Notes under the pieces: generated by a model
What the model saw: only the letters and a program-made list of their open reading frames with translations
Databases searched by the model: none
Told to the model about the DNA's origin: nothing
In this document: piece by piece, positions 1,575 to 24,693 of the stretch
How positions within the stretch are numbered: position 1 is the first letter of the stretch
Layout of the letters: every line of letters begins with the position of its first letter
Program-made: the position numbers and the translations under genes
IMG/VR virus record: IMGVR_UViG_3300034112_000349
Coordinates: 1 to 26,489 of that record
Length of the DNA: 26,489 nucleotides
Origin: a virus
Strand: one strand, 5' to 3'

Positions 1575-1620
1575 TATCTATAATTTTTACAAATTTACTT
1601 AATTATTCTTTCCTATTAAA

Positions 1621-3351: not shown

Positions 3352-3361
3352 GTTCTAATTT

Positions 3362-4534
3362 CTATTTAAAAATTGCTCTAATAAACTCATCAGCAGCCAA
3401 TGCTCTAGCCGTTGCAAAGGTAATGACTCCTGTAGATGCGTTAAAGGTTACATTCTCACCTGTAGGTACACCTGAAGTAGCAATACCTCTAACCTCAACA
3501 CCACCCCTTGAAACACTCACGCAAACCTTACCAATAGCACCTGAGAAAGTTACAGTTGTTTCTCCACCTGCCGCAGTATAATCAAACATTACTACGTTTG
3601 AACCTGTAACAACTACACCTGTAGGAGTAACTTGTGTACCTGTTATATTATAAGCACCAGAGCCTTGTAGTGACACGCTATATGTCGAGGCTGCCTCTAC
3701 CCCTGCACTTAAACTAAGTGAGCTTAAATTGGCTAATCCTGTAAATATAGAGTATCCTAAAGTACCACTACCATCTCCATTATCATTATCCACTTGGAAC
3801 TTGATTAAGATAGGTTGTCTTGTCAACTGAAGGTTAGCTAAGAATAAGTAAGAATAGTCGCTTAAAGCAACAAAGCCATCAGCATTGATAGACCATGAAG
3901 CTACGTCATTCTTAAACTCTTTAAACCATGCAGAACTTTGAGATGTTACTTCCTTCTGATCTACTGAAACCTCAAAAGAACAGTTTGTAGCTGCCCCAAA
4001 TGGGATTGTTGTAGGTATAGTTGTAATTGCCGAAGCATCATTTGAACCTTGTGTATAGAAAGTCATTGTTTTGGTAGTAATCTCACTTGCTACCACTTGT
4101 ATAACTATTCTTTCATTCGATAATAAAGTTGTTGCTGGAAACGCAAATGTTTGTGTGTATTGTTTAACAGCTAGTTGAGTAAAAAATATAGAGTTTGTAG
4201 TTCCTATAGATGTCAATGTTGTACCATTGTATTTGTATATATGGTAGTAGAATCTAGGTGCTGATACCAAATCATCACTTATTGATGCAAAAGCATTAAA
4301 AGTCCAAGTACCAGCAGGAATTGACAATGTAGCAACATCTGTAATAAATCCTGCAACTATACCATCTGAGGTTTTAGTAAAATTTGTAGCTACCCCATTA
4401 CTGTCAAGTAAACCAAATTGCTTATAACTTAAACCGCTAATGGTAGTTACCGAAGTAGAACCATTAAAATAAAAGGTTGGGTTTGGGTTTGTATAGTATA
4501 ATACTATGTTTGTTCCGTTTATTACTGATGCCAT
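3362..4534 (-). CDS. Tail-tube-like protein with inserted fibre domain and C-terminal beta extension
   Basis: This 390-residue protein sits between the baseplate-like protein and the S74 fibre. Its ends align with the major tail tube at 9436-9870: residues 5-14 (INGTNIVLYY) match tube FNGTNLVVLV, and residues 178-298 match the rest. Matched blocks are TNCSFEVSVDQ/TSCSLTVSADL, ASWSINADGFVAL/RSWSLTTDGLATV and STYSVSLQGSG/VTYSVSFTGQG. Residues 15-177 are an insertion (LSIPAGTWTFNAF, YHIYKYNGTTLTSIG, TMTFYTQGSN) homologous to residues 144-301 of the partial fibre at 1-1203. Residues 300-390 form a further beta-rich domain. Family knowledge: tube folds recur in baseplate proteins. Inference: a terminal tube or baseplate ring protein that carries a surface-exposed binding domain. 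The alignments were made by eye but contain several shared blocks in order. Confidence 0.7.
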   Translation of the reverse strand: MASVINGTNIVLYYTNPNPTFYFNGSTSVTTISGLSYKQFGLLDSNGVATNFTKTSDGIVAGFITDVATLSIPAGTWTFNAFASISDDLVSAPRFYYHIYKYNGTTLTSIGTTNSIFFTQLAVKQYTQTFAFPATTLLSNERIVIQVVASEITTKTMTFYTQGSNDASAITTIPTTIPFGAATNCSFEVSVDQKEVTSQSSAWFKEFKNDVASWSINADGFVALSDYSYLFLANLQLTRQPILIKFQVDNDNGDGSGTLGYSIFTGLANLSSLSLSAGVEAASTYSVSLQGSGAYNITGTQVTPTGVVVTGSNVVMFDYTAAGGETTVTFSGAIGKVCVSVSRGGVEVRGIATSGVPTGENVTFNASTGVITFATARALAADEFIRAIFK

Positions 4535-4545
4535 TATTTATATTT

Positions 4546-8729: not shown

Positions 8730-8734
8730 TTTAT

Positions 8735-9016
8735 CTAAACTTTAATATTATTATACTTTTTTAATACCTCTTGCAGTTCATCATTAGTCATAACCCTCTG
8801 CTTCACAAAGTTACGATTATCGCAGTCAAGTGGCAAAAGCTCACTTGCTTGTATCTTTTTGCCTTTTGGTAGTTGCATATTTACTAAAATAGTAGTCTGC
8901 CATCTTGCTCTTAACCATTCTTGTTCTTCTTTATGACGATATCCATACCAAACAAAATCTAATTCCGCCATCGTCATCTCCCAAAACAAATGGGGAAGCA
9001 CTTGGCACTCCCCCAT
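8735..9016 (-). CDS. Tail assembly chaperone, T-type extension reached by -1 frameshift
   Basis: Seen alone this is a 93-residue frame with an ATG at 9016. The same frame stays open upstream through 9017-9055 into the A9 run at the end of the preceding gene (added residues K-LEWIDIERYT), without an in-frame stop. Family knowledge: in many siphoviruses two ORFs between the major tail protein and the tape measure are joined by programmed frameshifting to give a long chaperone (lambda G and GT). Here a -1 slip would give a fusion of about 226 residues. The WEMTMAELDFVWYGYR segment resembles the short Trp-rich C-terminal modules of such extensions. Separate initiation at 9016 is possible but less likely to be the main product. 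Confidence 0.75.
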   Translation of the reverse strand: MGECQVLPHLFWEMTMAELDFVWYGYRHKEEQEWLRARWQTTILVNMQLPKGKKIQASELLPLDCDNRNFVKQRVMTNDELQEVLKKYNNIKV

Positions 9017-9042
9017 TGTATATCTTTCAATATCAATCCACT

Positions 9043-9414
9043 CTAATTTTTTTTTACATCAGAACTCTTCCCCTTCTTTACAGGTTCAGCTTCTATGCCA
9101 CTATTCATGCTTTCAGATAAAGCTGTAATAATGTTTTGAAATTTATCACTTGCTATACCACCAATATCATCAATCCAATCACAAACTTCTAATTCTGTAA
9201 TATTAGGTGTCTTACCTTCCTTATATAAAGGATATTCAGCAGCAGCTAATATTAAGTTAGTCATCGCATCTAATTGACTTGATCCGCTTAATGCTTGTCC
9301 TATTTCAGATGGTGCGATTCCTTGAAGTTGACAGAATCTTTTTAAAGACCATGTACAAAACCTCATAGGTATCTTAGTCCCATCGCTTAGGGATAGTTCG
9401 TATTGTCCTCTCAT
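9043..9414 (-). CDS. Tail assembly chaperone, G-type (unshifted product)
   Basis: A 123-residue protein following the major tail tube. It has the size and mixed helical composition of gpG-like chaperones, which coat the tape measure during tail assembly. Key blocks: YELSLSDGTKIPMRFCTWSLKRFCQL near the N-terminus and an acidic middle ELEVCDWIDDIGG. The gene ends GTA AAA AAA AAT TAG, so the stop lies immediately behind a run of nine A residues on the coding strand. That run is a natural -1 slip site leading into the frame at 8735-9016. Ribosomes that do not slip make this short form, which is normally the more abundant one. Confidence 0.75.
   Translation of the reverse strand: MRGQYELSLSDGTKIPMRFCTWSLKRFCQLQGIAPSEIGQALSGSSQLDAMTNLILAAAEYPLYKEGKTPNITELEVCDWIDDIGGIASDKFQNIITALSESMNSGIEAEPVKKGKSSDVKKN
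9047..9055 (-). other. Programmed -1 frameshift slippery site (A9)
   Basis: Nine consecutive A on the coding strand include the heptamer A AAA AAA in the zero frame, two codons before the TAG stop at 9045-9043. Slipping back one base enters a frame that is open to 8735. About 30 bases further on, AATGGGGGAG (9017-9008) can pair with CTTCCCCATT (8998-8989) with one G-U pair. The spacer is longer than that of typical stimulatory structures, so its role is unsure. Confidence 0.7.
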
Positions 9415-9435
9415 ATTTTGGTGTTTTTGGTGTTA

Positions 9436-9870
9436 TTATGCGTTAGTAGCCTGAGTTAATTGACCTTGTCCTGTGAAAGAAACAGAGTAAGTAACTGGAG
9501 ATTCCATATCAGCACTTATATCTAAACTTTCTACAAAAGCAGAACCAGACCAAATTAAATCACCTACTATCGGAGTGTTACCATTAACTGTAGTAAACTT
9601 TACAGTTACTGTAGTTCTTCCGTTTAAGGCAGAAAAAATATCTCCTACTACATAGCTTGTTCCTGTTGGCTCTACTGTAGCAAGACCATCTGTAGTTAAA
9701 GACCAAGAACGCAAACCTGCGATTTGATCAGCCCATCCACCACTTGATTTAGTTGTTGCATCTGGTAAGTCAGCACTTACTGTTAAAGAACATGATGTAG
9801 AGTGAGCTACAACTTCAGTTCCTACTAGAACTACTAGATTTGTACCATTAAAAATTCCTGTTGTTGGCAT
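9436..9870 (-). CDS. Major tail tube protein
   Basis: A 144-residue protein located between the tail terminator and the chaperone pair, the standard position for the tube subunit. It is beta-rich, with FNGTNLVVLVGTEVVAHS at residues 7-24, SWSLTTDGLATV in the middle, and TYSVSFTGQGQLT near the C-terminus. These are features of the TP901-1/lambda-V type tail tube fold. It forms stacked hexamers around the tape measure. The same fold appears a second time in the window, split by an insertion, at 3362-4534. Confidence 0.85.
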   Translation of the reverse strand: MPTTGIFNGTNLVVLVGTEVVAHSTSCSLTVSADLPDATTKSSGGWADQIAGLRSWSLTTDGLATVEPTGTSYVVGDIFSALNGRTTVTVKFTTVNGNTPIVGDLIWSGSAFVESLDISADMESPVTYSVSFTGQGQLTQATNA

Positions 9871-9889
9871 TTTATTTTATTTTAATTTT

Positions 9890-10318
9890 TTATAATATTT
9901 GAGTTACAAAGTGTTCCATTGTAATTACTCTTCTAAAGATATAAGCTTCATTTACATAATCAAATGTAGCATTATTGCTTGTAATCTTACGAGTAACTAT
10001 TTTAAAGTCAGGAGAAGCATTTGGGTAATCTGGTACATTAACGCCTATGATCTCTAACAATTCATTAGCCCACTGGTCTACCGATTTCTGTCCTACTTCA
10101 CCTGACTTAAAGGTTCTGTACACAACATCAAATTGAATAGTAACATCAAAGTTGTAACTCTGTTTGTCACTATTTTCTCCAGATGTTTGACTGCTTATAA
10201 TCAAGAATGGCGGTTCTACTGTGTCAGGTGCAATAGTATCGTAAACACCCAAAGAATAAGTCTCTGAGGCTAACTTATCTACATAAGCCTTTCGTATAGC
10301 ATATCCGCAATCTTTCAT
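9890..10318 (-). CDS. Tail terminator/completion protein
   Basis: A 142-residue protein just upstream of the major tail tube. Size, position and layout match the DUF3168/gpU-like tail terminators: an N-terminal helix (IRKAYVDKLASETY), a strand-rich middle with PPFLIISSQTSGENSDKQSYNFDVTIQFDVVYRT, and a C-terminal helix-strand with FRRVITMEHFV. This protein caps the tail tube and makes the surface that joins the head. The start overlaps the stop of the 50-residue upstream ORF by one base. The name rests on position and general pattern more than on a diagnostic motif. Confidence 0.7.
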   Translation of the reverse strand: MKDCGYAIRKAYVDKLASETYSLGVYDTIAPDTVEPPFLIISSQTSGENSDKQSYNFDVTIQFDVVYRTFKSGEVGQKSVDQWANELLEIIGVNVPDYPNASPDFKIVTRKITSNNATFDYVNEAYIFRRVITMEHFVTQIL

Positions 10319-10470
10319 TAAGCTTCTGTTTCAGCTTTTACTTCTTCAGGATTTTGCTCCTGAGCAAGTTTTGATAAGAACTGAGTTAAAGGCAATCCAA
10401 ACTTAGTTGGCATTTCTTGAATAAATGCGTCTAATTGTTTTACCTGCTCTTCGTTTAGTGTAATATTCAT
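10318..10470 (-). CDS. Small hypothetical protein, 50 residues
   Basis: A complete short frame, MNITLNEEQVKQLDAFIQ to EEVKAETEA, starts at the ATG at 10470-10468 and ends in a TAA that overlaps the next start (TAATG). It is predicted helical and acidic, with no membrane segment. Without it there would be a 196-base gap inside a tightly packed operon. One-base coupling to the tail terminator gene supports it being translated. Function is unknown; it could be a minor assembly factor or simply a translational leader. Confidence 0.6.
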   Translation of the reverse strand: MNITLNEEQVKQLDAFIQEMPTKFGLPLTQFLSKLAQEQNPEEVKAETEA

Positions 10471-10514
10471 GGTATTGATTTTGTACAAATTTAACGAAAT
10501 ATATTTAATTGAAC

Positions 10515-10982
10515 TTATTGCAATTTAAAGTTTTTAATACCCTTTAAAGCTTTAGTATATTCTATTTCAAAATTTTTAAATAAGTATGTTCTATAACCCA
10601 TATTGCTATTCTTGCCACCTGATCCTTTAAATATTGATGCGTAAGGTAAAATATGTTTAGGAGTTAGATTGTATTTGTATTTTTGAATACCAAAGCCTGT
10701 ACCAGTACCAAATTCAACATAAGGACCATATTTGGCGTTAACTACAACAGAAGCGTAAGAGCCATTATAAGGAATAGATGTTATGCTGTTTGATAAGTAA
10801 TTGGTTCTTTCGTAACTAGAATTTGCTGTTAAATATGGCAAATTAGAGGCATCAGATTTAGCTTCGCCTTCTATATTTTTTACCATTACGTTTAACTCAT
10901 TGATAACGTGTGACTTAAACTGAACAAAGCCATTTGCAAATTTGCTTTTTAGCTTTCCAATTCCTCTAACTTCTATAAACAT
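10515..10982 (-). CDS. HK97 gp10-like head-tail/neck protein
   Basis: A 155-residue protein following the head-tail joining protein, with its start overlapping that gene's stop by one base. It shows the gp10-like pattern: an N-terminal helix region (VQFKSHVINELNVMVKNIEGEAKSDAS), then SITSIPYNGSYASVVVNAKYGPYVEFGTGTGFG, where the YG.YVEFGTG motif is diagnostic of the family. Members act at the connector or tail end to complete head-tail joining. The motif is intact and the length is normal. Confidence 0.8.
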   Translation of the reverse strand: MFIEVRGIGKLKSKFANGFVQFKSHVINELNVMVKNIEGEAKSDASNLPYLTANSSYERTNYLSNSITSIPYNGSYASVVVNAKYGPYVEFGTGTGFGIQKYKYNLTPKHILPYASIFKGSGGKNSNMGYRTYLFKNFEIEYTKALKGIKNFKLQ

Positions 10983-11302
10983 TATTTAAGAGTTGTGCAT
11001 CCTATTAATAAATACTTGTTGCGATCTTCTTGATTTATGATAGAGTTTATCATGTATAATCTACTTTGAAAACTGATTACCAACTTTTTATCAAATACCT
11101 TAGATGTTGTGTATCTAATCTTGAATGTAATATCATCCTTAAATCCATCTGTACTAGCTATATTAGTCCTTGTGTTAGAATCGGATACCATCTCAGCCCA
11201 ACAAGTATAATAGTCAACAAGAGTGTTAACAAAACCACCTGCACTATCAGATACGCTTGTCTTACTTTTAAAAGTAATCCTATTTTGCATTCTACCTATC
11301 AT
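10982..11302 (-). CDS. Head-tail joining (stopper) protein, SPP1 gp16/HK97 type
   Basis: A 106-residue protein whose start, length and motifs fit the Phage_H_T_join family: MIGRMQNRITFKSKT at the N-terminus, GGFVNTLVDYYTCWAEMV (the usual .G....W...W.AM. pattern), ITFKIRYTTSKVFDKKLVIS, then SRLYMINSIINQED, which matches the typical YxIxsi..... near the C-terminus. It closes the portal channel and docks the tail. It overlaps both neighbours by one base. Confidence 0.85.
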   Translation of the reverse strand: MIGRMQNRITFKSKTSVSDSAGGFVNTLVDYYTCWAEMVSDSNTRTNIASTDGFKDDITFKIRYTTSKVFDKKLVISFQSRLYMINSIINQEDRNKYLLIGCTTLK

Positions 11303-11847
11303 TATAAGAATATGTTTATGCGTTTAAACGGCTTCATAAGCTCGTATGCGGTCGTTAAATTAGGCGATGGTCTACCAGCCTCAACTGATGACTCTCTGTA
11401 CTCGTATAGGTCTGAAACGAGCTTTAAAGTGGCAGTCTTTAAAGTGCTAGGTACACAGTCATAACCACAGTTATAGGTAAACCTATATTCCATGCCAGGA
11501 TAATCTCTTGTAAATACCTTTCTAACAGTTGTTCCTATTACCTCGTATGCGCCATCTTCTATTTCTACCCATGTATTAGCATTAAAATACTCTACACTAA
11601 GGATGTTAGTTATAGGAGCATAAGGTAGCTCTATTAACTCATCTACATAAGCTACAACTTGCAAAGTTCTTTCAGTCATTGCAATACCTGCATATTGCTC
11701 AAGTCTAACTCTTGCAGATGTAATTAAAGCTTCAATCAAAGCATCATCTTCACTAAAGTCTACTCTTAAATAGTTCTTAGCCTCAGCTAATGTAATAGGG
11801 TTAGTTACCTCTTCTGAAATTATCGTTATATCTCTTACTATTTGCAT
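11302..11847 (-). CDS. Head-tail connector protein, gp6/gp15-like adaptor
   Basis: 181 residues. The N-terminal ITLAEAKNYLRVDFSEDDALIEALITSARVRLEQYAG is the hallmark of the HK97 gp6-like connector family (T..EAK..LR.d...dD..I..li..A....E...g). It forms a ring under the portal. The C-terminal part includes LPYAPITNILSVEYFN and a RFTYNCGYDCVPSTLKTATLKLVSDLYEYR helix. It lies just after the terminator that follows the capsid gene, so its expression depends on read-through or a nearby promoter. Confidence 0.85.
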   Translation of the reverse strand: MQIVRDITIISEEVTNPITLAEAKNYLRVDFSEDDALIEALITSARVRLEQYAGIAMTERTLQVVAYVDELIELPYAPITNILSVEYFNANTWVEIEDGAYEVIGTTVRKVFTRDYPGMEYRFTYNCGYDCVPSTLKTATLKLVSDLYEYRESSVEAGRPSPNLTTAYELMKPFKRINIFL

Positions 11848-11890
11848 TATGCCATTATTTTTACAAAAATAACTAAAATATAGCGGACAT

Positions 11891-11919
11891 AAAAAAGGAG
11901 GCAGTTTGCGGCTGCCCCC
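11891..11919 (-). terminator. Rho-independent terminator after the capsid gene
   Basis: On the minus strand, CTGCC-type arms at 11919-11912 and 11904-11897 form an 8-bp stem with one mismatch and a 7-base loop, followed by six T (complement of 11896-11891). It lies 24 bases past the major capsid stop and inside an otherwise continuous late operon. It probably ends a share of transcripts, so capsid mRNA exceeds that of the downstream neck and tail genes. Confidence 0.75.
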
Positions 11920-11942
11920 TTGTATTTTAGATTAATCTAGGA

Positions 11943-13109
11943 TTAAGCTACGTTACCGAAATCACCATATACAAACGCATTGTTGTAATAGATAGGGAAT
12001 GCAATACGAGCTTCAACTCTTACAGTAATCAAGTTCTTTTGGAAGTTATCGCTATCCATTTCAGAGAACTGAACAGAAATACCTTGATTTTGCATGATTT
12101 GAGCACCCATTGACCAGTCACCTACTAAGAACTTGTCAGCAGCAATAGCTGTAGACTTGAACACAGGGATACCAGCGATAGAAACTGTACCATCAGTTGT
12201 AACAACTGTAGAAGCAGGTAAGCTATAAGCAGCATTTGTATTCTTAGTATTCATGATAGCAGCCCAATCAGTTGGGTTAATCAAGATACCATTAGCAGAA
12301 TAGTTAGCGTTACTAACTTGTGCAATAGCTTGTACTAATTGCTCTACATCTACTGTAGCAGCACCACCGAAAGCAGAAGCTACACCAGTGATACCTTGTA
12401 AGTTAGGAGCAGTACCATTACCATTCAATAACTGAGCATCTTCAGCTAATAAATACTTTTCTAACAAACGAGCTTGTAAGAAAGAAGTCATAGCAGGAAC
12501 ATCATCCAACATTTGACGAGAGATTCTTACGAAACCAGCAATGTATTGAGCAGGAGCATCAGTCATTGTGATATCGAAATCGATTTGAGATTTAGCAGAA
12601 CCTTGTACTTGTGGAGCTGCATCACCTTCACCACCTGTTTCCTTAGGGAAAGTAAATAAACCTGTAGAAATAGTTCCTACTGGTAATAAACTTCTCATGT
12701 GAACTTGACGATTAGGAAGAGCATATACTTGTGGAGCATATTGTCTTTGGATGTCACCAGTTAAGTTAACTGCTTCTGTCATGTTACCTACTGCCTTAGT
12801 GTCTAAGATAAAGCCAGAACGCTTCTGCTCACCACGACCTAATTTTGCGATACTGTCAGCATTCTTCTCGATTGCTTCAGCAAGGGATACGTTGAACCCT
12901 TTTACTTGATTTTCGTTCATTGTCTTACGATTGTTTTTTGCCTCTAATTTGTCAGCAGCATCTTTAACTACAGCAACTTGAGATTTTAATTCTTCTAATT
13001 CTGATTTTAAACTGTCTACCGCTACTGCGTTATCAGCTTTTAATGTTTCGATAGCACCGTTTACTTCGGTTTTAACGCCTTCGAAAGCACTTTTGATTTC
13101 TTCTACCAT
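11943..13109 (-). CDS. Major capsid protein, HK97 fold
   Basis: 388 residues. The N-terminal roughly 60 residues are a strongly heptad-patterned helical region (FEGVKTEVNGAIETLKADN to DAADKLEAKNN), the expected scaffolding-like delta domain removed by the prohead protease. The rest follows the Phage_capsid family: MRSLLPVGTISTGLFTFPKE, AQYIAGFVRISRQMLDDVPAMTSFL, LLNGNGTAPNLQGITG, ILINPTDWAAIMNTKN and a C-terminal VRVEARIAFPIYYNNAFVYG. The start overlaps the protease stop by one base. Cleavage probably falls near residues 65-105, after the charged stretch, but no precise site can be read from sequence. Confidence 0.95.
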   Translation of the reverse strand: MVEEIKSAFEGVKTEVNGAIETLKADNAVAVDSLKSELEELKSQVAVVKDAADKLEAKNNRKTMNENQVKGFNVSLAEAIEKNADSIAKLGRGEQKRSGFILDTKAVGNMTEAVNLTGDIQRQYAPQVYALPNRQVHMRSLLPVGTISTGLFTFPKETGGEGDAAPQVQGSAKSQIDFDITMTDAPAQYIAGFVRISRQMLDDVPAMTSFLQARLLEKYLLAEDAQLLNGNGTAPNLQGITGVASAFGGAATVDVEQLVQAIAQVSNANYSANGILINPTDWAAIMNTKNTNAAYSLPASTVVTTDGTVSIAGIPVFKSTAIAADKFLVGDWSMGAQIMQNQGISVQFSEMDSDNFQKNLITVRVEARIAFPIYYNNAFVYGDFGNVA

Positions 13110-13873
13110 TAGTTGAAAATTTTAAATGATTGTAAATAATTGTTCATCTCGATTTGCATGGAAATCATCGGGTCTTCCTCTTCTACCAATGCTTCTACTT
13201 CAGGAGATACGAAATCTTCATCCATAGGTTTTTGCGGTTGTTCTTCAAGGTCGACTGACTCTTCATCTTCCATCTCAGCAAGATATTGTTGTAATTGTTT
13301 AAGTTTAAGTTCTAACAGCTCAAATGTTTCGTCTGTAAAATGACCGTTTCTTAAAGACTTGATAGTTTTACCCATCTCATCTACAAGAACAGACTTTACT
13401 TGACTCTTCACTCCTACTGTTGGTGTATTTGCGTTTGCGCCCCACAATACTGAACTACCCTCAAACAATTTAATTTCATTGATTTCGTTATAGCCTGACT
13501 TCGCTTGTGACTTGATAGTCTGAAATCCGATGCTATGTTCTGTGATATGACCTTCTTTATACAACTCATAAGTATCGTTACCTAATGTTGTATTAGGCAT
13601 CTTTACTCTAGCCTTTAAGCCAAATCCATCTTCCATCATCTCGAATGGTTTAGCAATTGGCTTCTCGGTTGAGTGGTTAAATAAATGCCAGATTCTATTC
13701 TTGGCATTAGGTCCGTTTTCTTTTAGGGTTTTAGTGAATGCACCTGGTACAATAACATCGCCATCGCTATCGACATTACCAAACGCAGAATAGTAGACTG
13801 TGATAATTCTACCATTATCTTCCATGTCTACTGGAGCACCACTTACCGCTTTCTTGTTATAAAAGTTACTCAT
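13109..13873 (-). CDS. HK97-type prohead maturation protease
   Basis: 254 residues. The N-terminal two thirds match the S78 (HK97 gp4) family: AFGNVDSDGDVIVPGAF (residues 30-46), HLFNHSTEKPIAKP with catalytic His67, HITEHSIGF with Ser114, and KLFEGSSVLWGANANT with Glu138 at the usual third position. It cleaves the capsid delta domain and itself after prohead assembly. The C-terminal part (about 190-254) is acidic and Glu/Asp-rich (EMEDEESVDLEEQP), perhaps a self-processed tail. It sits between the Mu-F-like gene and the capsid gene as expected. Confidence 0.92.
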   Translation of the reverse strand: MSNFYNKKAVSGAPVDMEDNGRIITVYYSAFGNVDSDGDVIVPGAFTKTLKENGPNAKNRIWHLFNHSTEKPIAKPFEMMEDGFGLKARVKMPNTTLGNDTYELYKEGHITEHSIGFQTIKSQAKSGYNEINEIKLFEGSSVLWGANANTPTVGVKSQVKSVLVDEMGKTIKSLRNGHFTDETFELLELKLKQLQQYLAEMEDEESVDLEEQPQKPMDEDFVSPEVEALVEEEDPMISMQIEMNNYLQSFKIFN

Positions 13874-13882
13874 ATTTTTTAT

Positions 13883-14722
13883 TTAAGCTATATAAACTGT
13901 GCAGCATCTACAGTTGCAGTTATTTACTGCTAACCCTGCTGCATCATGTGCATATTGCATTTCTATTAGTCCATAGTCAGGAGTGTTTACTAGGAATGGT
14001 TGATTAACAGGGATTCTTACACCTTTGTTGTCAGGATTCGTTTGTCTATCTAAATCCCTGTGCCATAATCTTGGCTTACCACTCTTAGCTGGATATTCAG
14101 CAGCTATCCATTGTTTTAATACTGGAACACCTGCTAACCTAACCGCACCTATAGCACCTGTACTTAATGCCTGATGGCTTTCAGTCCTTGCTATAAGTAA
14201 ACTCCTTGCGTTATTTATCTTCCCTTCTTTCAGAGTTTGAATCGCCAATCTGTTTACTTCGTTCTGTGACAATCCATTCTCACGACCAAACTTTATAACA
14301 TTAGCGAATATACGAGCTATTTCGTTTTCAGTAGTATTCTCTATGCCTTGCATCTTTAGTCCGCTAATCGCAGTCCAATACGATAACATAAATACTAACC
14401 ACTCATCCAAAATGTTTAAAGGGTCAAGGTCAATCTCTTCCGCTTTCTTATTCGTTTCAAACATCTGTTGGTATCGCATAGCAGTATAACCGCCAGTTGA
14501 TTCATACAAAGTTCGTAAAATATTATTAATCTTATCGCCAGTAAAAAATCCTGCACGATTATTAGCCGCTTGTTCTACCCCTAATGCCTCAACCATTTGA
14601 GCAGCTTTATCAAAATCAGATTGTAAAGCCTCTTTTATTTTAGGCTGAAACTCTCTGACTGATTTCCTTGCAATCTTTTGTTGCAAAGCAAACTGCTGTG
14701 ATGGATAAAGTATTTTCGGCAT
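13883..14722 (-). CDS. Phage Mu gpF-like minor head protein
   Basis: 279 residues, encoded directly after the portal gene without a gap. The C-terminal half has the Mu-F pattern: ARSLLIARTESHQAL (the RTE motif), KQWIAAEYPAKSGKPRLWHRDLD, then PVNQPFLVNTPDY and the terminal NCNCRCCTVYIA. Proteins of this type are minor head components injected with the DNA or needed for head assembly. The last 10 residues hold four cysteines, a more cysteine-rich ending than the usual NCRC, so metal binding is possible. Confidence 0.85.
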   Translation of the reverse strand: MPKILYPSQQFALQQKIARKSVREFQPKIKEALQSDFDKAAQMVEALGVEQAANNRAGFFTGDKINNILRTLYESTGGYTAMRYQQMFETNKKAEEIDLDPLNILDEWLVFMLSYWTAISGLKMQGIENTTENEIARIFANVIKFGRENGLSQNEVNRLAIQTLKEGKINNARSLLIARTESHQALSTGAIGAVRLAGVPVLKQWIAAEYPAKSGKPRLWHRDLDRQTNPDNKGVRIPVNQPFLVNTPDYGLIEMQYAHDAAGLAVNNCNCRCCTVYIA

Positions 14723-16129
14723 CTATTTTACTGGAGGCAAATTATAATCACCTTGTTGTTGAGCATCTCTAGGGTCTTGTAACATAGTCAACTCATCTAT
14801 AGGCAAGTAACCTGCTGGGATAAAGATTTCGTTCATTACTTCATCTTCTACAGTATCATAACGCATAGCTGCTCTCTTCTCGTTTGGAGTAATCCACCAA
14901 GATTGAGAAAGGATAGCACTAAGCTCTTTCATGTCCTCTTGCAACTCTGGGAATACTGTCAAATCAAAATCGATATAGTAACCTTGTCCAATTTCTGAAG
15001 CAAAGAATCTATTGAAAGCATCACGAAGAGCTACTAACTCAGGAAGGACTACTTGAGTTAACATTTCCTTCTTAGCTTCCTTCATGTTGTTATAAGTCTT
15101 GTTATCAGGATCGTTGAACAACGCAGAGTTCACTCCGTAAACATTACAAAGTTCTCTAAGTGTAATCTTCTCTGATTCTAATAATTGCAAGTCAACAGGA
15201 CTTAATCCCATGTTAACCCATCCAAGTTTAGCACCTGCAACTAAAATCTGTCCAGCGTTCTGAACAATCTTGTTCTTAGTTCCGTACTGATTGTAGAAAT
15301 CTTCTTTTAACTTACCTGCTTGTTCAGGACCAAAGTCATTTGATTCATCAGCATACAAGATACCTTTAGGTCCTTGATTCTGTAACATACCAACTGATGT
15401 GTCTTTAGCATCGTTGCTACGTTGTACTGTTCTATATGCAGCTTGTAATGGACTTAAGCCGTAAAGCTGTTGTCCGTTAGTATCAAAGTAAGGGTTGAAG
15501 TATTTTAGATGGATTACGTCTTTCGCATCTAATTGATCCCATCCAACTAGCGTAAAAGAATAACCTTCAACCCCATTTATTGTACCATCAGAAATAATGG
15601 CAACGTATTGAGATGGGAGTGTAACAAGTTCCGCAACCTTACCTGAGTCTAATCTATTTGCCCAAATGTAAGTGTTACCTGTAATAAGTTTATAACCTAT
15701 AGCACTCTCGATAAATTCAGAGAATGATTGATATTCGTTTGGCTTTTCTAGCAAATCGTTTAAAGGTGAATCAGCAATCTCTGCAACTGCTTTTACACGA
15801 ACTAACTCTGCTTTTGCTATATCTGCTGTGCTTGTAGCGTTATCAAGCATAGACTTATATCTGTTAAGCTCTTTCTTGTTTTTTATTTGGTAAACATAGA
15901 AAGGAACTGTAGATACAGTTTTAGAAATACGTTTGATGATAGCATATACCTCACTATTGTTTTTATAGTCAAGTACAAATTTTTGCTGGTCTAATTCTGG
16001 GTAAAGTGTTCTACCAACTAATAAACCTCCTAAATCGCCAAAAGGATTATTAATGTTGTTAAAAGTCACCTTTGGTGCTGCCTTTTGTTTAAAAGGGTTA
16101 GCTGCCTTTAGTATGTCCGTTAAATTCAC
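14723..16129 (-). CDS. Portal protein, HK97 family
   Basis: 468 residues, in the normal range for HK97-type portals. Recognisable blocks: YAIIKRISKTVSTVPFYVYQ near residue 60, DSPLNDLLEKPNEYQSFSEF, GNTYIWANRL, DVIHLKYFNP, YGLSPLQAAYRT, GILYADES, LRELCNVYGVNSALFNDPDNKTYNN and the C-terminal WITPNEKRAAMRYD. It forms the dodecameric DNA channel at one capsid vertex, binds the terminase during packaging, and joins the connector afterwards. Confidence 0.93.
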   Translation of the reverse strand: MNLTDILKAANPFKQKAAPKVTFNNINNPFGDLGGLLVGRTLYPELDQQKFVLDYKNNSEVYAIIKRISKTVSTVPFYVYQIKNKKELNRYKSMLDNATSTADIAKAELVRVKAVAEIADSPLNDLLEKPNEYQSFSEFIESAIGYKLITGNTYIWANRLDSGKVAELVTLPSQYVAIISDGTINGVEGYSFTLVGWDQLDAKDVIHLKYFNPYFDTNGQQLYGLSPLQAAYRTVQRSNDAKDTSVGMLQNQGPKGILYADESNDFGPEQAGKLKEDFYNQYGTKNKIVQNAGQILVAGAKLGWVNMGLSPVDLQLLESEKITLRELCNVYGVNSALFNDPDNKTYNNMKEAKKEMLTQVVLPELVALRDAFNRFFASEIGQGYYIDFDLTVFPELQEDMKELSAILSQSWWITPNEKRAAMRYDTVEDEVMNEIFIPAGYLPIDELTMLQDPRDAQQQGDYNLPPVK

Positions 16130-16167
16130 GCTATATATTATTTTTACAAAAGTAACAAATTTTTATG

Positions 16168-17304
16168 CTATACAACCCATCCTCTTTTAGGTTTCGCATA
16201 TTTTGTGTATATGGCATACCTCATAGAGTCCATTAAGTGATCTCGAAACTTTACAGGTTCATCAAGTGTGTTGCCATCTGCATCGGTCTTCCACTTATAG
16301 TTTTTAATCTCATCAAGCAAATCCAAAGATTCTGATTTAATGTGTATAGGGAATGACTTAACCTTGTTAATTCCTGCATATACATCCTTAATAGCAGACT
16401 TCAGGTTAAATCCTGCCTTATTCACCTCCGCAATAGTTTTTGGTTCAGCAGGGTCAGCAAATATCTCAGAGTTTCTATCAAGCCCTAAAGAACGCATCCT
16501 GTCGATTAGTAAAGCGGTTGACATTTTAGTATCGTAGATTAATTGGTCAACAAACAACTCGCCATCAAAGTTCTTGACCCTAACAAGGGCTGTTTGGTTG
16601 TTAAATCCAAAGTCAAGTCCGTAAAACGTATCTCCGCCATCAGGGAAGTTCCTTCTACGCTTCCAATGCGTATAAATGGTCGCTTGGGATATTGCTCTCT
16701 CTCCTAAACCATAAACACGCCAATATTCATGGTCGGCTGCTTTAAGCCTCTCAATCTCATCCACAATCCCCTTCTCTAAAAAAGGGTTGTCTAGGTAAGT
16801 CGTAATCGTAAAGTCGGCATCTTCTCTTGGAACAACCTTATCGTAAATCCAGGAGTAGTAATCGGAAGGGTTATAGTCAATTACTATCTTTTCGGTTGTA
16901 CGAAGGGACAACTGCATCCAAGATTCGTAGTTTACCTCATTCGCCTCGTTTATAAACAGATAATTACGCTTTCGACCTCTAATCTTCTGCGGTTGGTCTG
17001 TAGAAACGAACTCTACGACATTCCCACCCAAAAAGTAGATGTTTTCGGTCTTATTGTGTTTCTCCTCGCTATAAAGCCCATACTTAGACAAAATCTCAAT
17101 AAAGTCACGCATTACCGAACCTTTGATGGATGGTAAGGAGCTACGACATATTGTCAGCGTCTTTCCTTTCTCTTGAAGCAGTTTTACGATAAACCATGTA
17201 AGTACATTGTATGTCTTACCTGATCTCGTTCCTCCTTGCATGATGGAAATTCTCTTAGTAGAGTTTTGCAGTATTTCGAAGACTACGTTTGTGGTGACGT
17301 TCAT
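16168..17304 (-). CDS. terL: Terminase large subunit
   Basis: About 378 residues. The ATPase half has Walker A GGTRSGKT (residues 24-31) and Walker B YLFINEA (114-120) with the catalytic Glu. The nuclease half has the three acidic sites: YGLDFGFN (Asp230), FADPAEPKTI (Asp283) and DHLMDSMRYAIY (Asp354/358). It resembles the PBSX/Terminase_3 group. It cuts and pumps phage DNA into proheads together with the small subunit and portal. At about 378 residues it is compact, with no sign of truncation. Confidence 0.93.
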   Translation of the reverse strand: MNVTTNVVFEILQNSTKRISIMQGGTRSGKTYNVLTWFIVKLLQEKGKTLTICRSSLPSIKGSVMRDFIEILSKYGLYSEEKHNKTENIYFLGGNVVEFVSTDQPQKIRGRKRNYLFINEANEVNYESWMQLSLRTTEKIVIDYNPSDYYSWIYDKVVPREDADFTITTYLDNPFLEKGIVDEIERLKAADHEYWRVYGLGERAISQATIYTHWKRRRNFPDGGDTFYGLDFGFNNQTALVRVKNFDGELFVDQLIYDTKMSTALLIDRMRSLGLDRNSEIFADPAEPKTIAEVNKAGFNLKSAIKDVYAGINKVKSFPIHIKSESLDLLDEIKNYKWKTDADGNTLDEPVKFRDHLMDSMRYAIYTKYAKPKRGWVV

Positions 17305-17498
17305 AGGAAAAATTTTAAAAAATAGGATGGAAGTTTACTAATAGAAAACTTTTGGTTTTATAGGAAGGTAGGGGGGTCTATGCACTTTGCTATTTTAAGC
17401 CCCATTTAAGCCTTTCAATTCCAAAATGGATACATAGTACTACACATAGGGTTAAAAGCCTTAGAATCGCCTTAAAATGCGAAATAGAGGCATTGTAG
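17305..17498. other. Gap between terminase genes, no gene seen
   Basis: About 194 bases separate the terminase genes in an otherwise tightly packed operon. The gap holds a G6 run (about 17366-17371) and one copy of the word GCCTTAAAAT (17469-17478) that recurs only in other non-coding places of this window. A 79-codon minus-strand frame crosses it but starts inside the small terminase gene and looks like a shadow. A packaging recognition site here is possible but unproven. Confidence 0.4.
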
Positions 17499-18056
17499 CT
17501 ACTCCTCATAGTCACCATCTTCATTAATATCCAATAATTCGCCTTTATCATGGTTATAAAGTGGGATTTCATCACTTTCTCCTGCCTTGTAAGCAGGTAC
17601 GACCATTCCTGGCTCTGTTTGCGTATCAAAGTTGATTATCTCACCCTCTGGTAACGCTTTGTGCTCATCTCCGTCTATTTGTTTCATAATATCTCCAATT
17701 TGATTCGGTTTTATAACATTGACTGTGATTTGCTTAACCACATCCCCTTCATGAGCAACCTCAGTCTTTTCGATATATCCTCTTCTCTTGCCTCTAGTCT
17801 TCAGTAAGAACATTGTAGCTAAGGTATCACCTCTAGCAATCCTCTCCATTAGCTTTTGTTCGCCAAAGTCAAGCATTATCTCCTCAGGCTCGATTTCAGC
17901 TAATCTCTTAGCAAACTCAGGGTCATCCTTCAACCAAGTCTTATACTGCGTTCTACCGACTCCAGATGCCTCACAAGATATGGTGATATTGCCAAAGTTC
18001 TCCTTATAGGCTATGATGAAAGCCTCTTTAGCTATTTCTTTGAATTGTGCGTTCAT
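17499..18056 (-). CDS. terS: Terminase small subunit
   Basis: 185 residues, immediately upstream of the large terminase gene. The N-terminus holds a helix-turn-helix (FKEIAKEAFIIAYKENFGNI then CEASGVGRTQYKTWLKDDPEF), followed by an oligomerisation-like helix (FAKRLAEIEPEEIMLDFGEQ) and MERIARGDTLATMFLLKTRGKRRGY, a segment characteristic of phage small terminases. The C-terminal third is acidic and likely flexible. It recognises the packaging site and regulates the large subunit. Confidence 0.85.
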   Translation of the reverse strand: MNAQFKEIAKEAFIIAYKENFGNITISCEASGVGRTQYKTWLKDDPEFAKRLAEIEPEEIMLDFGEQKLMERIARGDTLATMFLLKTRGKRRGYIEKTEVAHEGDVVKQITVNVIKPNQIGDIMKQIDGDEHKALPEGEIINFDTQTEPGMVVPAYKAGESDEIPLYNHDKGELLDINEDGDYEE

Positions 18057-18057
18057 A

Positions 18058-18249
18058 TTATCTATTCTTTGTTGGTGTGCGTATTGAAATAATGCTAGTA
18101 ACCTTCTTCTCTAGGTTATCATGACCTAACCACTTGCCACAATTGGTGCATTCAAACTGAGTTTCCTTTACTTGACTAAACCACACGTATCCTTCGGTAA
18201 CTGTACCGCATTTACACGTGTAATCCTTTTTACCATAAGTATCTTTCAT
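18058..18249 (-). CDS. Small zinc-ribbon-like protein
   Basis: 63 residues with two cysteine pairs, YTCKCGTV (Cys12, Cys14) and FECTNCGKWLGH (Cys34, Cys37), the layout of a treble-clef or zinc-ribbon fold, though the first pair is CxC instead of CxxC. It is the first gene of the leftward late operon, one base from the small terminase gene. Function is unknown. A role in transcription or packaging is conceivable from its place. Confidence 0.65.
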   Translation of the reverse strand: MKDTYGKKDYTCKCGTVTEGYVWFSQVKETQFECTNCGKWLGHDNLEKKVTSIISIRTPTKNR

Positions 18250-18812
18250 CTCAAATGTTTAAAAATGTTAAAATCATTGTTTTATATCAGAATTTTGGGG
18301 GGCCCGAGACGTCTTAAATTTAGATCACACTAAAAATATGCCTAGGGGGTCCAGGATCTAGAATATACTTTGCAAGGCCTTAGATACCCCAAAAATTTGG
18401 TTATTTCCTATCGTTTAGGTCCTTTGCTCATAATTGGGTCCAAGTCCTAGAAACGCCTTAAAATAGCCTTAGTTTAAATTGGTTGTTTTTATGGTGGTTT
18501 ATTGTGTTGGTATTACGCTAAGTTAGGGATAATATTTAATGATTGTCTAGGCACTCAGAGGGGAAAGGTAAAAATTGCGGTTAGTATTATATTAATACAT
18601 AAACCACTAATTTAATAGTAAGTACTTATATGCTTAATACTATATTAAATTACTAATCTATTTAATAATATAATATATAATTATTAATTGAATACTTATA
18701 CTTATATATCAACCAGGATAAAAATAATTTTAAAATATTTATATTTTTTTCAACTTTGTATTAATTAGATCCTTATCTTTAGGTCCTATTAATAACAATA
18801 AACAAAAACAAC
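18250..18812. promoter_or_regulatory. Divergent intergenic control region
   Basis: 563 bases without a gene separate the leftward late operon from the rightward genes, so promoters for both should lie here. The left part (18290-18480) is relatively G/C-rich, with G-runs (18295-18300, 18342-18346), AGACGTCT and a GCCTTAAAAT repeat. The right part (18570-18760) is extremely AT-rich with nested palindromes: GTATTA-TAT-TAATAC (18584-18598), TAAGTACTTA (18620-18629), and TTAATACTATATTAA (18635-18649). TTTAGGTCCT occurs twice (18414-18423 and 18778-18787). No perfect TAnnTTTG box was found; TATCTTTA at 18775-18782 is a weak candidate. Confidence 0.5.
18455..18471 (+). repeat. 17-bp direct repeat, left copy
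   Basis: GCCTTAAAATAGCCTTA is found exactly here and again at 20668-20684. The two copies lie near the ends of the compositionally different segment and both follow CCTAG by one to four bases. Shorter copies of its core GCCTTAAAAT occur at 17469-17478 and 20679-20688. Confidence 0.6.
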
Positions 18813-20302: not shown

Positions 20303-20332
20303 GCCCTGGGCTTAATTGCCTAGGGCTTTTTT
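20303..20332 (+). terminator. Strong rho-independent terminator after the Gp88-like gene
   Basis: GCCCTGGGC (20303-20311) pairs with GCCTAGGGC (20318-20326) over 9 bp with one G-U pair and a 6-base loop, followed by six T. It ends the rightward island transcript 14 bases past the stop. Confidence 0.9.
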
Positions 20333-20589: not shown

Positions 20590-20667
20590 TTAATTAAAAG
20601 CCTATTAAGGGCCTAAATTTATTTTTATGTATAACTTATCCAAAGTAAAAAAAGAAGCCAGCCTAGG

Positions 20668-20684
20668 GCCTTAAAATAGCCTTA
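20668..20684 (+). repeat. 17-bp direct repeat, right copy
   Basis: Exact copy of GCCTTAAAATAGCCTTA from 18455-18471, followed without a gap by a further GCCTTAAAAT (20679-20688 overlaps its end). It marks the right edge of the compositionally different segment. Confidence 0.6.
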
Positions 20685-20743
20685 AAATACTATTCTAGGC
20701 CTTGGCCAACATATGCAAAAGCATTAAGCAAAAACTAACGCTC

Positions 20744-20765
20744 ATTAGTTGACTAATCAACTAAT
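20744..20765. repeat. Perfect inverted repeat, operator-like
   Basis: ATTAGTTGA and TCAACTAAT are 9-bp arms around a CTAA centre. The symmetry and size fit the site of a dimeric repressor, and the place, between the island and the replication operon, fits control of either. Confidence 0.55.
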
Positions 20766-20977
20766 TTATAGAATTTTGCAACTAAATTTCAGTTGCAGGC
20801 AAAAACCTGCCAAAAACCCTATGCAAAAACTCCCCAAAAAACCCACAAAAATCTGGGGCAAAAATCTTTTGTATGGATAAAAACTTTTGCAAACCTTTAA
20901 CAATATTTTAACAAAAAACTTTCAAATATTTACAAAAACTTCCTAATTTTACATTCTACAACCAAAACAAAAAACCC

Positions 20978-21175
20978 ATGCACGAATTAATCACACTTAG
21001 TTACCAGATGAAGTGCGGTATTACTGGCACTATCATCGACAAAGGCGAACAAGCCTATTACAATCATCAGACAAAAACCTGTATTCATCCATTGGAATAT
21101 GAAAGGAATATGAGCCAGGTCAAGATAGGTGATCCAAAAACCTACTTTACTAGACACCAAAAACTTAACAAATAA
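20978..21175 (+). CDS. Small hypothetical protein, 65 residues
   Basis: The first gene of the replication operon, with an A-rich leader (AAAACCC before ATG). The N-terminal half (YQMKCGITGTIIDKGEQAYY, then NHQTKTCIHPLEYE) has two cysteines and two histidines in a spacing that might bind a metal, and resembles small proteins often found in Bacteroidota phages. Function is unknown. The next gene starts 12 bases downstream, so co-transcription is likely. Confidence 0.6.
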   Translation: MHELITLSYQMKCGITGTIIDKGEQAYYNHQTKTCIHPLEYERNMSQVKIGDPKTYFTRHQKLNK

Positions 21176-21187
21176 AACATACAACAC

Positions 21188-21397
21188 ATGAAATTCGAAT
21201 TCGTAGCCGAAACAGACCAATTACTTAATGACACAATCTACTTTACTAAGCAAGATGGTGTATTTATCAGTGGAACTATCAGCACTAAAAGAGAGGTAGC
21301 TTATGCCATCTTTGAGAAGCTTAGTCAAGGTCTACCACTTAGAACATCAGAAGTCCTAGAAACAAAAATCTATCCAAAACCCTCACTAGAGGAATAA
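21188..21397 (+). CDS. Small hypothetical protein, 69 residues
   Basis: Mixed alpha/beta: MKFEFVAETDQLLNDTIYFT, DGVFISGTISTKREVAYAIF, EKLSQGLPLRTSEVLETKIY. There are no cysteines, no membrane segment and no known motif. Spaced 12 bases from each neighbour in the early operon. Function is unknown. Confidence 0.6.
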   Translation: MKFEFVAETDQLLNDTIYFTKQDGVFISGTISTKREVAYAIFEKLSQGLPLRTSEVLETKIYPKPSLEE

Positions 21398-21408
21398 AAC
21401 CAAAACCA

Positions 21409-21639
21409 ATGTTGAAACTAACCCTAGAACAAAAGAAAAAAGGTATCAAAGAAGAGTTTACCTATGTAAACAGTAACGGAAGAATGTCAAAACAATACAC
21501 CTACAAAGGGATGTATATAACATGGGATAACCAAATCCTACATGGCAAATGGTATTACTGGAGAGCAAGTTATTACGCTTCTTTAGATGCAGCAGTTCAA
21601 GGAGTAGACAGACATATCAATCACTTTAAAACTAAATAA
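21409..21639 (+). CDS. Small hypothetical protein, 76 residues
   Basis: A basic protein rich in Tyr and Trp (TYKGMYITWDNQILHGKWYY, then WRASYYASLDAAVQGVDRHI). Alternating strand pattern followed by a C-terminal helix. It is perhaps a small nucleic-acid-binding fold, but no family is recognised. The next gene begins four bases after its stop. Confidence 0.6.
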   Translation: MLKLTLEQKKKGIKEEFTYVNSNGRMSKQYTYKGMYITWDNQILHGKWYYWRASYYASLDAAVQGVDRHINHFKTK

Positions 21640-21643
21640 ACAA

Positions 21644-21844
21644 ATGCAAGAAATCACAGACTACAAAAGCCTATTTAAGTATGGCGACATGAAAAAGATT
21701 ATGGAGATTACAGGCTATAGTCGTTATGTTATTGAAACAAGACTTAAGAACAATGATTATGAGATGACCGAGTTAATCAAAACATTTTACAACAAAAAAC
21801 TCGAACTATTAAAAACACAAATCAATGATTACAGCGAAATTTAG
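21644..21844 (+). CDS. Small helix-turn-helix protein
   Basis: 66 residues. DMKKIMEITGYSRYVIETRLKNNDYEMTEL at about residues 15-44 reads as a helix-turn-helix (IMEITGYSRYVIETRL), followed by a helical, Lys-rich tail. It could be a small DNA-binding regulator of the early operon. Its 3' end overlaps the start of the DnaA-like gene by 20 bases, so translation of the two is probably coupled. Confidence 0.55.
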   Translation: MQEITDYKSLFKYGDMKKIMEITGYSRYVIETRLKNNDYEMTELIKTFYNKKLELLKTQINDYSEI

Positions 21845-22199
21845 AACACCAAGACAAAACTTACTAAAGAAAAAACCTTTGTTTGTAGATCAGGACATCG
21901 TAAACAACCTAGTCAACAAGGTAGCTAAAGCTTGTAATTTAGATGCTAAGATAATCACTAAGAAAGGTAGATATAGACCTCAAGTACTTGCTCGTAATAT
22001 GTGCTTCTATATCCTTCATGTACACTACAAGCAAAAAGCCGCCCAAATAGCTCCTTATTTCCATAGAGATAGGACTACAGTGCTACATGGCATAAACACC
22101 TTTGTAAATGACGTAGAAGTTGTGCCATACTATATGGAGCAATACACGCAGGTTAGAAGTAAGATTAAGATACCAAAACTATATTCAGAAAACTATTAA
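21825..22199 (+). CDS. Stand-alone DnaA domain-IV-like DNA-binding protein
   Basis: 124 residues. Residues 51-96 match the C-terminal DNA-binding domain of DnaA: RPQVLARNMCFYILHVHYKQ, KAAQIAPYFHRDRTTVLHGI. The RDRTTVLHG block corresponds to the DnaA signature RDHTTVLHA, with Arg in place of His. There is no AAA+ ATPase domain, so it can bind DNA but not load helicase by itself. Family knowledge: domain IV recognises TTATNCACA-type boxes. Inference: it binds DnaA-like boxes, perhaps those at 20636-20644 and 20872-20880, either to bring in the host initiator or to repress. The window also encodes an O-like protein and DnaB. Confidence 0.8.
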   Translation: MITAKFRTPRQNLLKKKPLFVDQDIVNNLVNKVAKACNLDAKIITKKGRYRPQVLARNMCFYILHVHYKQKAAQIAPYFHRDRTTVLHGINTFVNDVEVVPYYMEQYTQVRSKIKIPKLYSENY

Positions 22200-22209
22200 A
22201 ACAAACACT

Positions 22210-22407
22210 ATGCTATCAACATTCGCACACATGAACGAAGTAGACAAAAAAATCTTTGTCGCTAAGATTATCCACAACATGAACTACAGCCAATCAAGTT
22301 ATGAAACTATGGAAGCTATAGTTAAAATGTGGGAACAATATCCAATTAAACAAGCAACCTTTTTTACACAATCAAATCAATTAACACATGGAACTGCAAA
22401 CAACTAA
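22210..22407 (+). CDS. Small hypothetical protein, 65 residues
   Basis: The ATG at 22210 is preferred because it follows an A-rich leader right after the DnaA-like stop; an earlier in-frame ATG at 22120 lies inside that gene. It is helical (MNEVDKKIFVAKIIHNMNYS, then SYETMEAIVKMWEQYPIKQA). Its end overlaps the next gene by 20 bases. No family is recognised. Confidence 0.55.
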   Translation: MLSTFAHMNEVDKKIFVAKIIHNMNYSQSSYETMEAIVKMWEQYPIKQATFFTQSNQLTHGTANN

Positions 22408-23951: not shown

Positions 23952-24040
23952 ATGAGTATTGCAGACTCATTAAGAACTTATTGCCCTTGATACGAACCCC
24001 TATCTGCAATGTAGGGGGAACTTGATAGGGCACTTTTATT
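23952..24040 (+). ncRNA. Structured RNA with kissing hairpins (small RNA or leader)
   Basis: Hairpin 1: ATGAG (23952-23956) and CTCAT (23966-23970) around the loop TATTGCAGA. Hairpin 2: CCCCTA (23997-24002) and TAGGGG (24012-24017) around the loop TCTGCAATG. The loops are complementary over 8 bases (ATTGCAGA at 23958-23965, TCTGCAAT at 24003-24010), so they can kiss or form a pseudoknot. TGCCCT (23982-23987) and AGGGCA (24027-24032) enclose hairpin 2, and the last arm is followed by CTTTTATTTT. A promoter ends just upstream. It may be a free small RNA of about 85-90 bases with a terminator-like end, or a leader controlling the replication gene that starts at 24043. No known RNA family was recognised. 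Confidence 0.55.
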
Positions 24041-24042
24041 TT

Positions 24043-24693
24043 ATGGAAAGAGATTTTAAGGGAGTTTGGATTCCCAAAGAAGTATGGTTAGACGAAAACC
24101 TTACATGGATGGAAAAGCTATTGTTGGTAGAAATAGATAGCTTAGATAAAGAGAAAGGTTGCTTTGCGAGTAACAAGTATTTTGCCGAGTTTTTTCAGTT
24201 AAGTCCATCAAGGATTAGTGAGTTAGTAAGCCAGTTGGTTAGTAAAGGCTATATAACTACTTTTCTTTTGTATGATGGTAAACAAGTAAAACAAAGGATT
24301 TTAACACCAACAGTACCTATTCGGAAAAGAGAACTAGGTATTCGGAATATCGAAGAGGGGTATTCGGAAAAGGCTGAGGATAATAATACAATACTTAATA
24401 ATACAATTAATAATAAATCTATAAATATATCGTTTGATACATGGTGGGATTTATATGATAAGAAGGTTGGTAGTAAAACTAAACTACAAAATAAGTGGAA
24501 TAAGCTAACTGACAATCAAAGAACACAAGCTATAAAACATACTAAGGAATATAAGATTGCACAACCTGATAAACAATACCGTAAAAACCCTGATACCTAC
24601 TTAAATAACGAATCATTCTATGATGAGATAATTAAGCCTAAAGAATTTAATCAAGTACCTACTAACAGAGTAACTACTAAAATAAAACTATAA
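24043..24693 (+). CDS. Phage replication protein, O/DnaD-like replisome organiser
   Basis: 216 residues from the ATG at 24043. A TTG at 24022 would add seven residues but lies within the RNA stem, so ATG is preferred. Residues 1-90 form a winged-helix domain: GVWIPKEVWLDENLTWMEKL, CFASNKYFAEFFQLSPSRIS, ELVSQLVSKGYITTF. The Asn-rich linker (about 92-125) covers the iterons in the DNA. The C-terminal domain has FDTWWDLYDKKVGSKTKLQN, KWNKLTDNQR and RKNPDTYLNNESFYDEI, a common ending of phage primosome proteins. Role: binds the origin and brings in the DnaB helicase encoded two genes downstream. Confidence 0.75.
   Translation: MERDFKGVWIPKEVWLDENLTWMEKLLLVEIDSLDKEKGCFASNKYFAEFFQLSPSRISELVSQLVSKGYITTFLLYDGKQVKQRILTPTVPIRKRELGIRNIEEGYSEKAEDNNTILNNTINNKSINISFDTWWDLYDKKVGSKTKLQNKWNKLTDNQRTQAIKHTKEYKIAQPDKQYRKNPDTYLNNESFYDEIIKPKEFNQVPTNRVTTKIKL
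24318..24430 (+). other. Candidate replication origin: three iterons plus AT-rich tract
   Basis: TATTCGGAA occurs at 24318-24326, 24339-24347 and 24361-24369, with spacings of 21 and 22 bases (two helical turns). It is followed by 24381-24430, which contains no G and only four C in 50 bases. Copies 1 and 2 are read as I-R and copy 3 as Y-S-E, that is, in a different frame, so the repeat is kept at DNA level and not because of the protein. The layout, inside the replication protein gene, is that of lambda ori in gene O. Confidence 0.6.

Follow-up and report, generated by a model that had tools for sequence, protein, structure and literature searches.

A conserved array of short direct repeats in a putative early control region of uncultured, probable Bacteroidota phages

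We found that the intergenic DNA in front of the early operon of an uncultured phage carries an array of six CAAAAAYCY-like direct repeats that, judged from sequence comparison, is kept by nearly every member of a family of probable Bacteroidota phages. The window, meaning the whole stretch analyzed, is a 26.5-kb IMG/VR virus fragment, and the region under study (20590 to 20977) is best read as a control region for the early operon that contains a putative multi-site protein-binding DNA array, a reading to which we assign a probability of roughly 0.55. The array is present and conserved, occurs once per genome, keeps an orientation that is tied to that of the terminase genes, whatever the direction of the genes nearby, and does not depend on the type of replication initiator. 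An earlier note on this DNA had proposed that the region is either a replication origin with DnaA boxes or a control region for the early operon; what was read there as a DnaA-box origin is a real, conserved, family-specific cis element.

The minus strand of the window carries the late genes (1 to 18249) and the plus strand carries the early genes from 18813 onward, with the region under study lying between a cassette that contains GP88 (Pfam E value, 1.6e-40) and the early operon. In a search of a phage collection, the terminase of the window resembled those of Bacteroidales and Flavobacterium phages with a best identity of only about 36%, so this collection holds no close isolate; the resemblance makes a host in the Bacteroidota probable. 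For comparison, 116 related loci were fetched, and counts of loci given below include redundant contigs. Four family genomes (G001, G003, G005, and G007) are 33 to 36 kb long and have identical ends of 121 or 127 bp, which are probably assembly overlaps of circular maps. We also observed that the DNA between the divergent late and early genes (18590 to 18800) is extremely AT rich (about 84%) and contains palindromes. The features discussed below are collected in Table 1.

Table 1. Features in and around the region under study (positions in the window)
Feature	Position	Strand	Basis or comment
Terminator-like hairpin plus T6 at the end of the upstream GP88 cassette	20303-20326	+	9-bp stem, 7 GC pairs, T-run
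DnaA-box-like site 1, TTATCCAAA	20636-20644	+	Judged a chance match; the cassette around it is exchangeable and shared by few relatives
Perfect 9-bp inverted repeat with 4-bp spacer, ATTAGTTGA-CTAA-TCAACTAAT, operator-like	20744-20752/20757-20765		Sequence
Tentative Bacteroidota-type promoter, TTG-N19-GAATTTTG, overlapping the palindrome	20749-20778	+	One mismatch to TTG-N(17-23)-TAnnTTTG
Small hairpin directly before the array	20777-20797	+	Fold; sequence varies, stem often kept in relatives
Array of six CAAAAAYCY-like sites	20800-20867	+	20800-20808, 20811-20819, 20824-20832, 20836-20844 (A for C), 20846-20854, 20859-20867
DnaA-box-like site 2, TTATCCATA	20872-20880	-	Judged a chance match; at a position where relatives carry inserts
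12-codon open frame, MDKNFCKPLTIF	20873-20911	+	Relatives have whole genes inserted at this place, separating the array from the next block
AT-rich, conserved block preceding the first early gene; contains promoter-like TAATTTTA (20944-20951)	20897-20957	+	Aligned, largely conserved in >90 relatives
First early-operon genes	20978-22199	+	ORFs 20978-21175, 21188-21397, 21409-21639, 21644-21844, 21825-22199
Stand-alone DnaA domain IV (Bac_DnaA_C) protein, 124 aa	21825-22199	+	Pfam E 1.5e-12
Lambda-O-like replication initiator gene	24022-24693	+	phrog_270 replication initiation protein E 3.9e-26; HTH_36; ATG start more likely ~24040
Three direct repeats, TATTCGGAA, 21-22 bp apart, inside the initiator gene	24318-24369	+	Then AT-rich stretch to ~24450

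Sequence, distribution, and orientation of the array

The earlier note had pointed to six A-tracts with 11- to 13-bp spacing, and these are present (starts at 20801, 20812, 20825, 20836, 20847, and 20860) and strongly conserved. They are the cores of a degenerate 9-bp direct repeat, CAAAAAYCY. In aligned relatives, in a comparison not seeded on the repeat, the tracts of sites 1 to 6 are intact in 84/84, 90/90, 86/90, 51/91, 87/91, and 74/86 cases, while the linkers vary; the site with the lowest count, at 20836, is a run of six A's. The pattern NAAAAAYY occurs six times in 70 bp, a density reached in none of 2,000 shuffles that preserved local composition, and the maximum in 200 shuffles of the window was three. 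Non-redundant arrays give the consensus C (84%), A5, Y (99%), C (84%), Y (92%), in a collection seeded on CAAAAAYY. Relatives carry about 4 to 10 copies per array, and the usual spacings are 11 and 13 bp in the group to which the window belongs and 9, 17, and 13 bp in a distant clade, the L198 type (L197 to L199 and L377 to L392; terL at about 61%).

The earlier suggestion that these tracts mark bent DNA is weak, since their spacing does not hold the helical phase. At 10.5 bp, coherence was 0.33 in the window (where the best period was 11.8 bp) and averaged 0.38 over non-redundant family members, compared to 0.33 for random spacing, so that by this calculation the tracts do not keep a register of about 10.5 bp in the window or in the family mean. 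A strong bend is therefore not predicted from phasing alone, and we rejected helically phased bent DNA as the selected property: the array repeats a sequence and is not a phased bend.

Nine near-complete genomes each contain exactly one array, on the strand of early transcription. When viral contigs were scanned for a three-repeat pattern, the matches listed came mainly from this phage family and from regular short tandem repeats; the pattern matches inspected in bacterial genomes were regular short tandem repeats of other kinds, and we discarded them as arrays. Relative to the terminase genes, the array is always on the opposite strand (132 of 132 loci scored by terS and 110 of 110 scored by terL), at a distance of 1.5 to 4.2 kb from terS where that gene is recognizable. 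This orientation is unchanged in the L198-type clade, in which the DnaA domain IV gene (DnaA-C) lies on the other strand, as does the primase-helicase gene where it was read (L198 and L199), and in which the array sits either upstream of DnaA-C, by 120 to 250 bp, or downstream of it, by about 200 bp. Local transcription therefore does not set the orientation of the array, which would thus act as DNA rather than as a leader RNA. The core is the same across ten initiator types and seven DnaA-C types. It is not universally essential, since a few L198-type relatives keep DnaA-C with 0 to 3 array sites; L395, L397, and L398, together with the 33-kb contig that holds L395 (G017), have DnaA-C with at most one site beside it.

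Exchangeable elements around the array

The earlier note had also listed a perfect inverted repeat, a further hairpin, and an AT-rich tract, and each of these is found in the region (Table 1). The inverted repeat occurs in only one of several types of upstream region; it could be aligned in only 12 relatives, 7 of them identical. Other relatives have several unrelated operator-like regions upstream of their arrays, often ending in a small hairpin, and a hairpin just upstream of the array exceeds the 95% null in 41% of non-redundant arrays. On the other side of the array, the AT-rich block before the first early gene is 84% AT, in phages whose intergenic DNA is generally AT rich. Many relatives have inserted genes of 0.3 to 1.7 kb that separate the array from this promoter-like block. 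We observed gene cassettes at the equivalent of 20873 to 20911 in L012, L036, L086, and L097, some of which appear by eye to be DNA methyltransferase-like, and a second copy of the promoter-like block (20897 to 20935) near the equivalent of 18.8 kb in several relatives (L011, 2836 to 2875; L047, 992 to 1030; and L109, 1644 to 1682).

These features support the suggestion in the earlier note of a control region for the early operon, in that the region is intergenic, lies directly before the operon, and combines exchangeable palindromic operator-like elements and a hairpin with the conserved array and promoter-like block. One result counts against an early control region: sites resembling TTG-N(17-23)-TAnnTTTG, the Bacteroidota-type promoter with the -7 consensus taken from PMC9723704, occur in the region at the number expected by chance.

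DnaA-box-like sites and candidate origins

The origin proposal in the earlier note drew on two 8-of-9 matches to the DnaA box TTATCCACA in opposite orientation, which are present at both positions (Table 1), and on a gene for a stand-alone DnaA domain IV protein in the same operon, which is also there. Matches with at most one mismatch number 10 in the window, compared to 8.1 ± 2.8 expected, and are not enriched in ten family genomes, which have 5 to 10 such matches, almost none of them exact, compared to about 10 to 13 expected. No cluster of TTATNCACA boxes above chance was found in the window or in these ten genomes, and the same scan does detect dense boxes in a control-like record (L412). 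Site 1 could be aligned in 8 of 97 relatives and has at most one mismatch in 6 of those, while site 2 comes within one mismatch of TTATCCACA in only 3 of 64. Conservation of the boxes, which the earlier note had named as a point on which its proposal could fail, is thus absent for site 2 and nearly so for site 1. We also considered a perfect TTATCCACA at 22268 to 22276 and rejected it as a selected box; it is part of a coding frame, and relatives differ there chiefly at every third base, so there is no sign of selection for a box. The two DnaA-box-like sites are coincidental, and the idea that the DnaA domain IV protein binds them is unsupported. Given boxes that are at chance level and unconserved, family genomes without a box cluster, and iterons inside the initiator gene instead, an origin at which either host DnaA or this phage protein binds the two sites deserves hardly any credence.

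The array itself could be the origin, with its repeats serving as iterons and the AT-rich block beyond them as the unwinding element. It is a unique, conserved direct-repeat array beside 84% AT DNA, and in the L198 type its neighbors include a second repeat cluster, an AT-rich tract, and the gene for the primase-helicase. However, whole genes stand between the array and the AT-rich block in many relatives, one genome (G017) has no array, and the array does not covary with its own initiator but stays unchanged across ten initiator types, while the initiator genes carry repeats of their own. GC skew adds no independent origin signal: in four circular maps it follows gene direction and turns at the borders of transcription, and we set it aside as an origin locator because it is confounded with gene direction. 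We regard the array as an improbable origin. Compared to the iteron arrays of phage and plasmid replicons, such as lambda ori in gene O, it is likewise a unique, lineage-conserved direct-repeat array beside AT-rich DNA, but it has a 9-bp repeat with irregular spacing of 9 to 17 bp, is not tied to one initiator, and can stand apart from the AT-rich block.

The lambda-like arrangement is found instead inside the initiator gene at 24.3 kb, which, with DnaB, is encoded downstream of the DnaA-C gene. Between 24318 and 24450, iterons about two helical turns apart are followed by an AT-rich stretch, and the repeats differ between initiator types; lambda ori has the same arrangement, within gene O. 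Three-copy repeat chains did not arise in any of 40 codon shuffles. Initiator types O1/O7/O9 and O6 have three-copy sets, that of O6 (L041) being a different set at the same place; O3, O4, and O10 have two-copy candidates that are not significant alone, and no repeat set was found in the genes of types O2, O5, and O8. From this sequence pattern, the initiator gene is the more probable site of the replication origin and the best candidate in the window. As a separate observation, the repeat cluster of the distant clade (L199, approximately 4050 to 4180; also L198, L197, and L382) lies between the array and the primase-helicase gene and consists of ATCGCGTACC-like repeats with a TTGATTATCAA palindrome and the AT-rich tract, with letters that vary between genomes. 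This cluster is a possible origin of that clade.

Candidate ligands and functions of the array

We propose that the tandem 9-bp repeats are the functional core of the region and would act as duplex DNA. A DNA-binding protein may occupy the array in several copies, producing a nucleoprotein patch beside the early promoter or promoters; such binding could control early transcription and possibly also the timing of replication. The operator-like palindromes and gene cassettes around the array are exchanged freely, and the array stays.

The favored single ligand is the stand-alone DnaA domain IV protein of the phage, which has the sequence signature of this domain and is predicted to share its fold. 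Its profile matches 1j1v and 3pvp, and its structural model (pLDDT 78) has DnaA DNA-binding domains complexed with box DNA as best Foldseek matches. In an alignment in which the Escherichia coli DnaA row served for residue numbering only, the domain identity coming from Pfam, the profile match, and Foldseek, the arginine equivalent to R399 is invariant and the equivalent of H434 is arginine in the type found in the window. When the two main clades are compared, no early gene other than DnaA-C (about 30%) is consistently recognizable, three others giving weak, scattered matches. The gene is present with 70 of 70 arrays that have at least 6 kb of early flank, a co-occurrence biased by the many loci that were collected via DnaA-C itself. 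We observed that the gene (21822 to 22199) exists as at least two highly divergent, interchanged alleles, which share 28% identity and have RDRTT or RDHTT as recognition helix; the exchange is sharply bounded at the ends of the gene, and both neighbors remain about 80 to 95% identical.

This assignment is tentative and stands well short of even odds because of three results. The relatives that keep DnaA-C with 0 to 3 sites show that the protein does not need the array there. Phages outside the family have DnaA-C without the array; no CAAAAAYC array was found in the 10.8 to 16.3 kb around the gene in Polaribacter, Pelagibacter, and other phages, and we dropped the idea that phage DnaA-C proteins in general are paired with the array. 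Finally, CAAAAAYCY is unlike a DnaA box, though several DnaA-C types retain the usual contact residues that read ordinary boxes. Pelagiphages HTVC024P and Greip and Polaribacter phage P12002L likewise carry a stand-alone DnaA-C of the same domain IV family in early or replication modules, but unlike the family described here they lack the array in the stretches examined. The array resembles the DnaA-box clusters of bacterial oriC in having 9-mer sites about 11 bp apart and a DnaA DNA-binding-domain protein encoded nearby; it differs in that CAAAAAYCY is not TTATNCACA, true boxes are absent, and the protein lacks the AAA+ and helicase-loading domains. We found no paper on the binding sites of phage stand-alone DnaA domain IV proteins. 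The broader idea that the family evolved its own DnaA-like recognition, in which domain IV left the TTATCCACA box, reads the CAAAAAYCY array, and organizes the early control region without AAA+ activity, is doubtful. Taken together, the other ligands, namely a terminase or packaging function, a host factor, or another phage protein, are clearly the more probable.

Among these, the array might serve transcription through host RNA polymerase or a nucleoid protein of the host, as an upstream A-tract enhancer of the early promoter with no dedicated phage ligand. Its A-tracts lie just upstream of promoter-like blocks, and it is indifferent to which phage regulators are present, but the L198-type clade has no early gene pointing away from the array with the same orientation, spacings of 9, 11, 13, and 17 bp are out of helical register, and the conserved flanking C and YCY are not needed by simple A-tract elements; we consider this unlikely. 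Another candidate role is that of a packaging start (pac), at which a ring of small terminase subunits would engage the evenly spaced A-tracts. All loci tested share one orientation of the array relative to the terminase genes, the circular assembly maps fit headful packaging without proving it, and the SPP1/SF6 small terminase is believed to pick out DNA by its intrinsic bend, showing little sequence specificity (PMC4737164). The SPP1/SF6 pac likewise has repeats and A-rich DNA in a fixed relation to the terminase genes, but the SPP1 pac overlaps the small terminase gene, while the array is kilobases from it, has a conserved sequence core beyond the A-tracts with little helical phasing, and is missing from some genomes. 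Moreover, the array can be recognized in both main clades, whereas the small terminase of one cannot be recognized in the other. Together these points make a pac site quite unlikely.

An RNA role, with the array placed after a 5' hairpin in the early-transcript leader, was attractive at first, since the hairpin directly upstream has partly compensating changes and the array often abuts a start codon. We dropped this reading on the reversal in the L198-type clade of array orientation relative to DnaA-C and primase transcription; no Rfam family matched at the array either, and we consider an RNA function very improbable.

An early control region built around a putative protein-binding DNA array is thus the reading that we prefer. 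The array is kept across deep divergence while initiators, operators, cassettes, and the direction of neighboring genes change, which would make it a central control point of an abundant uncultured phage family. The search for the replication origin shifts to the initiator gene, and the array offers a concrete DNA target for asking what role stand-alone DnaA domain IV proteins may have in phages.
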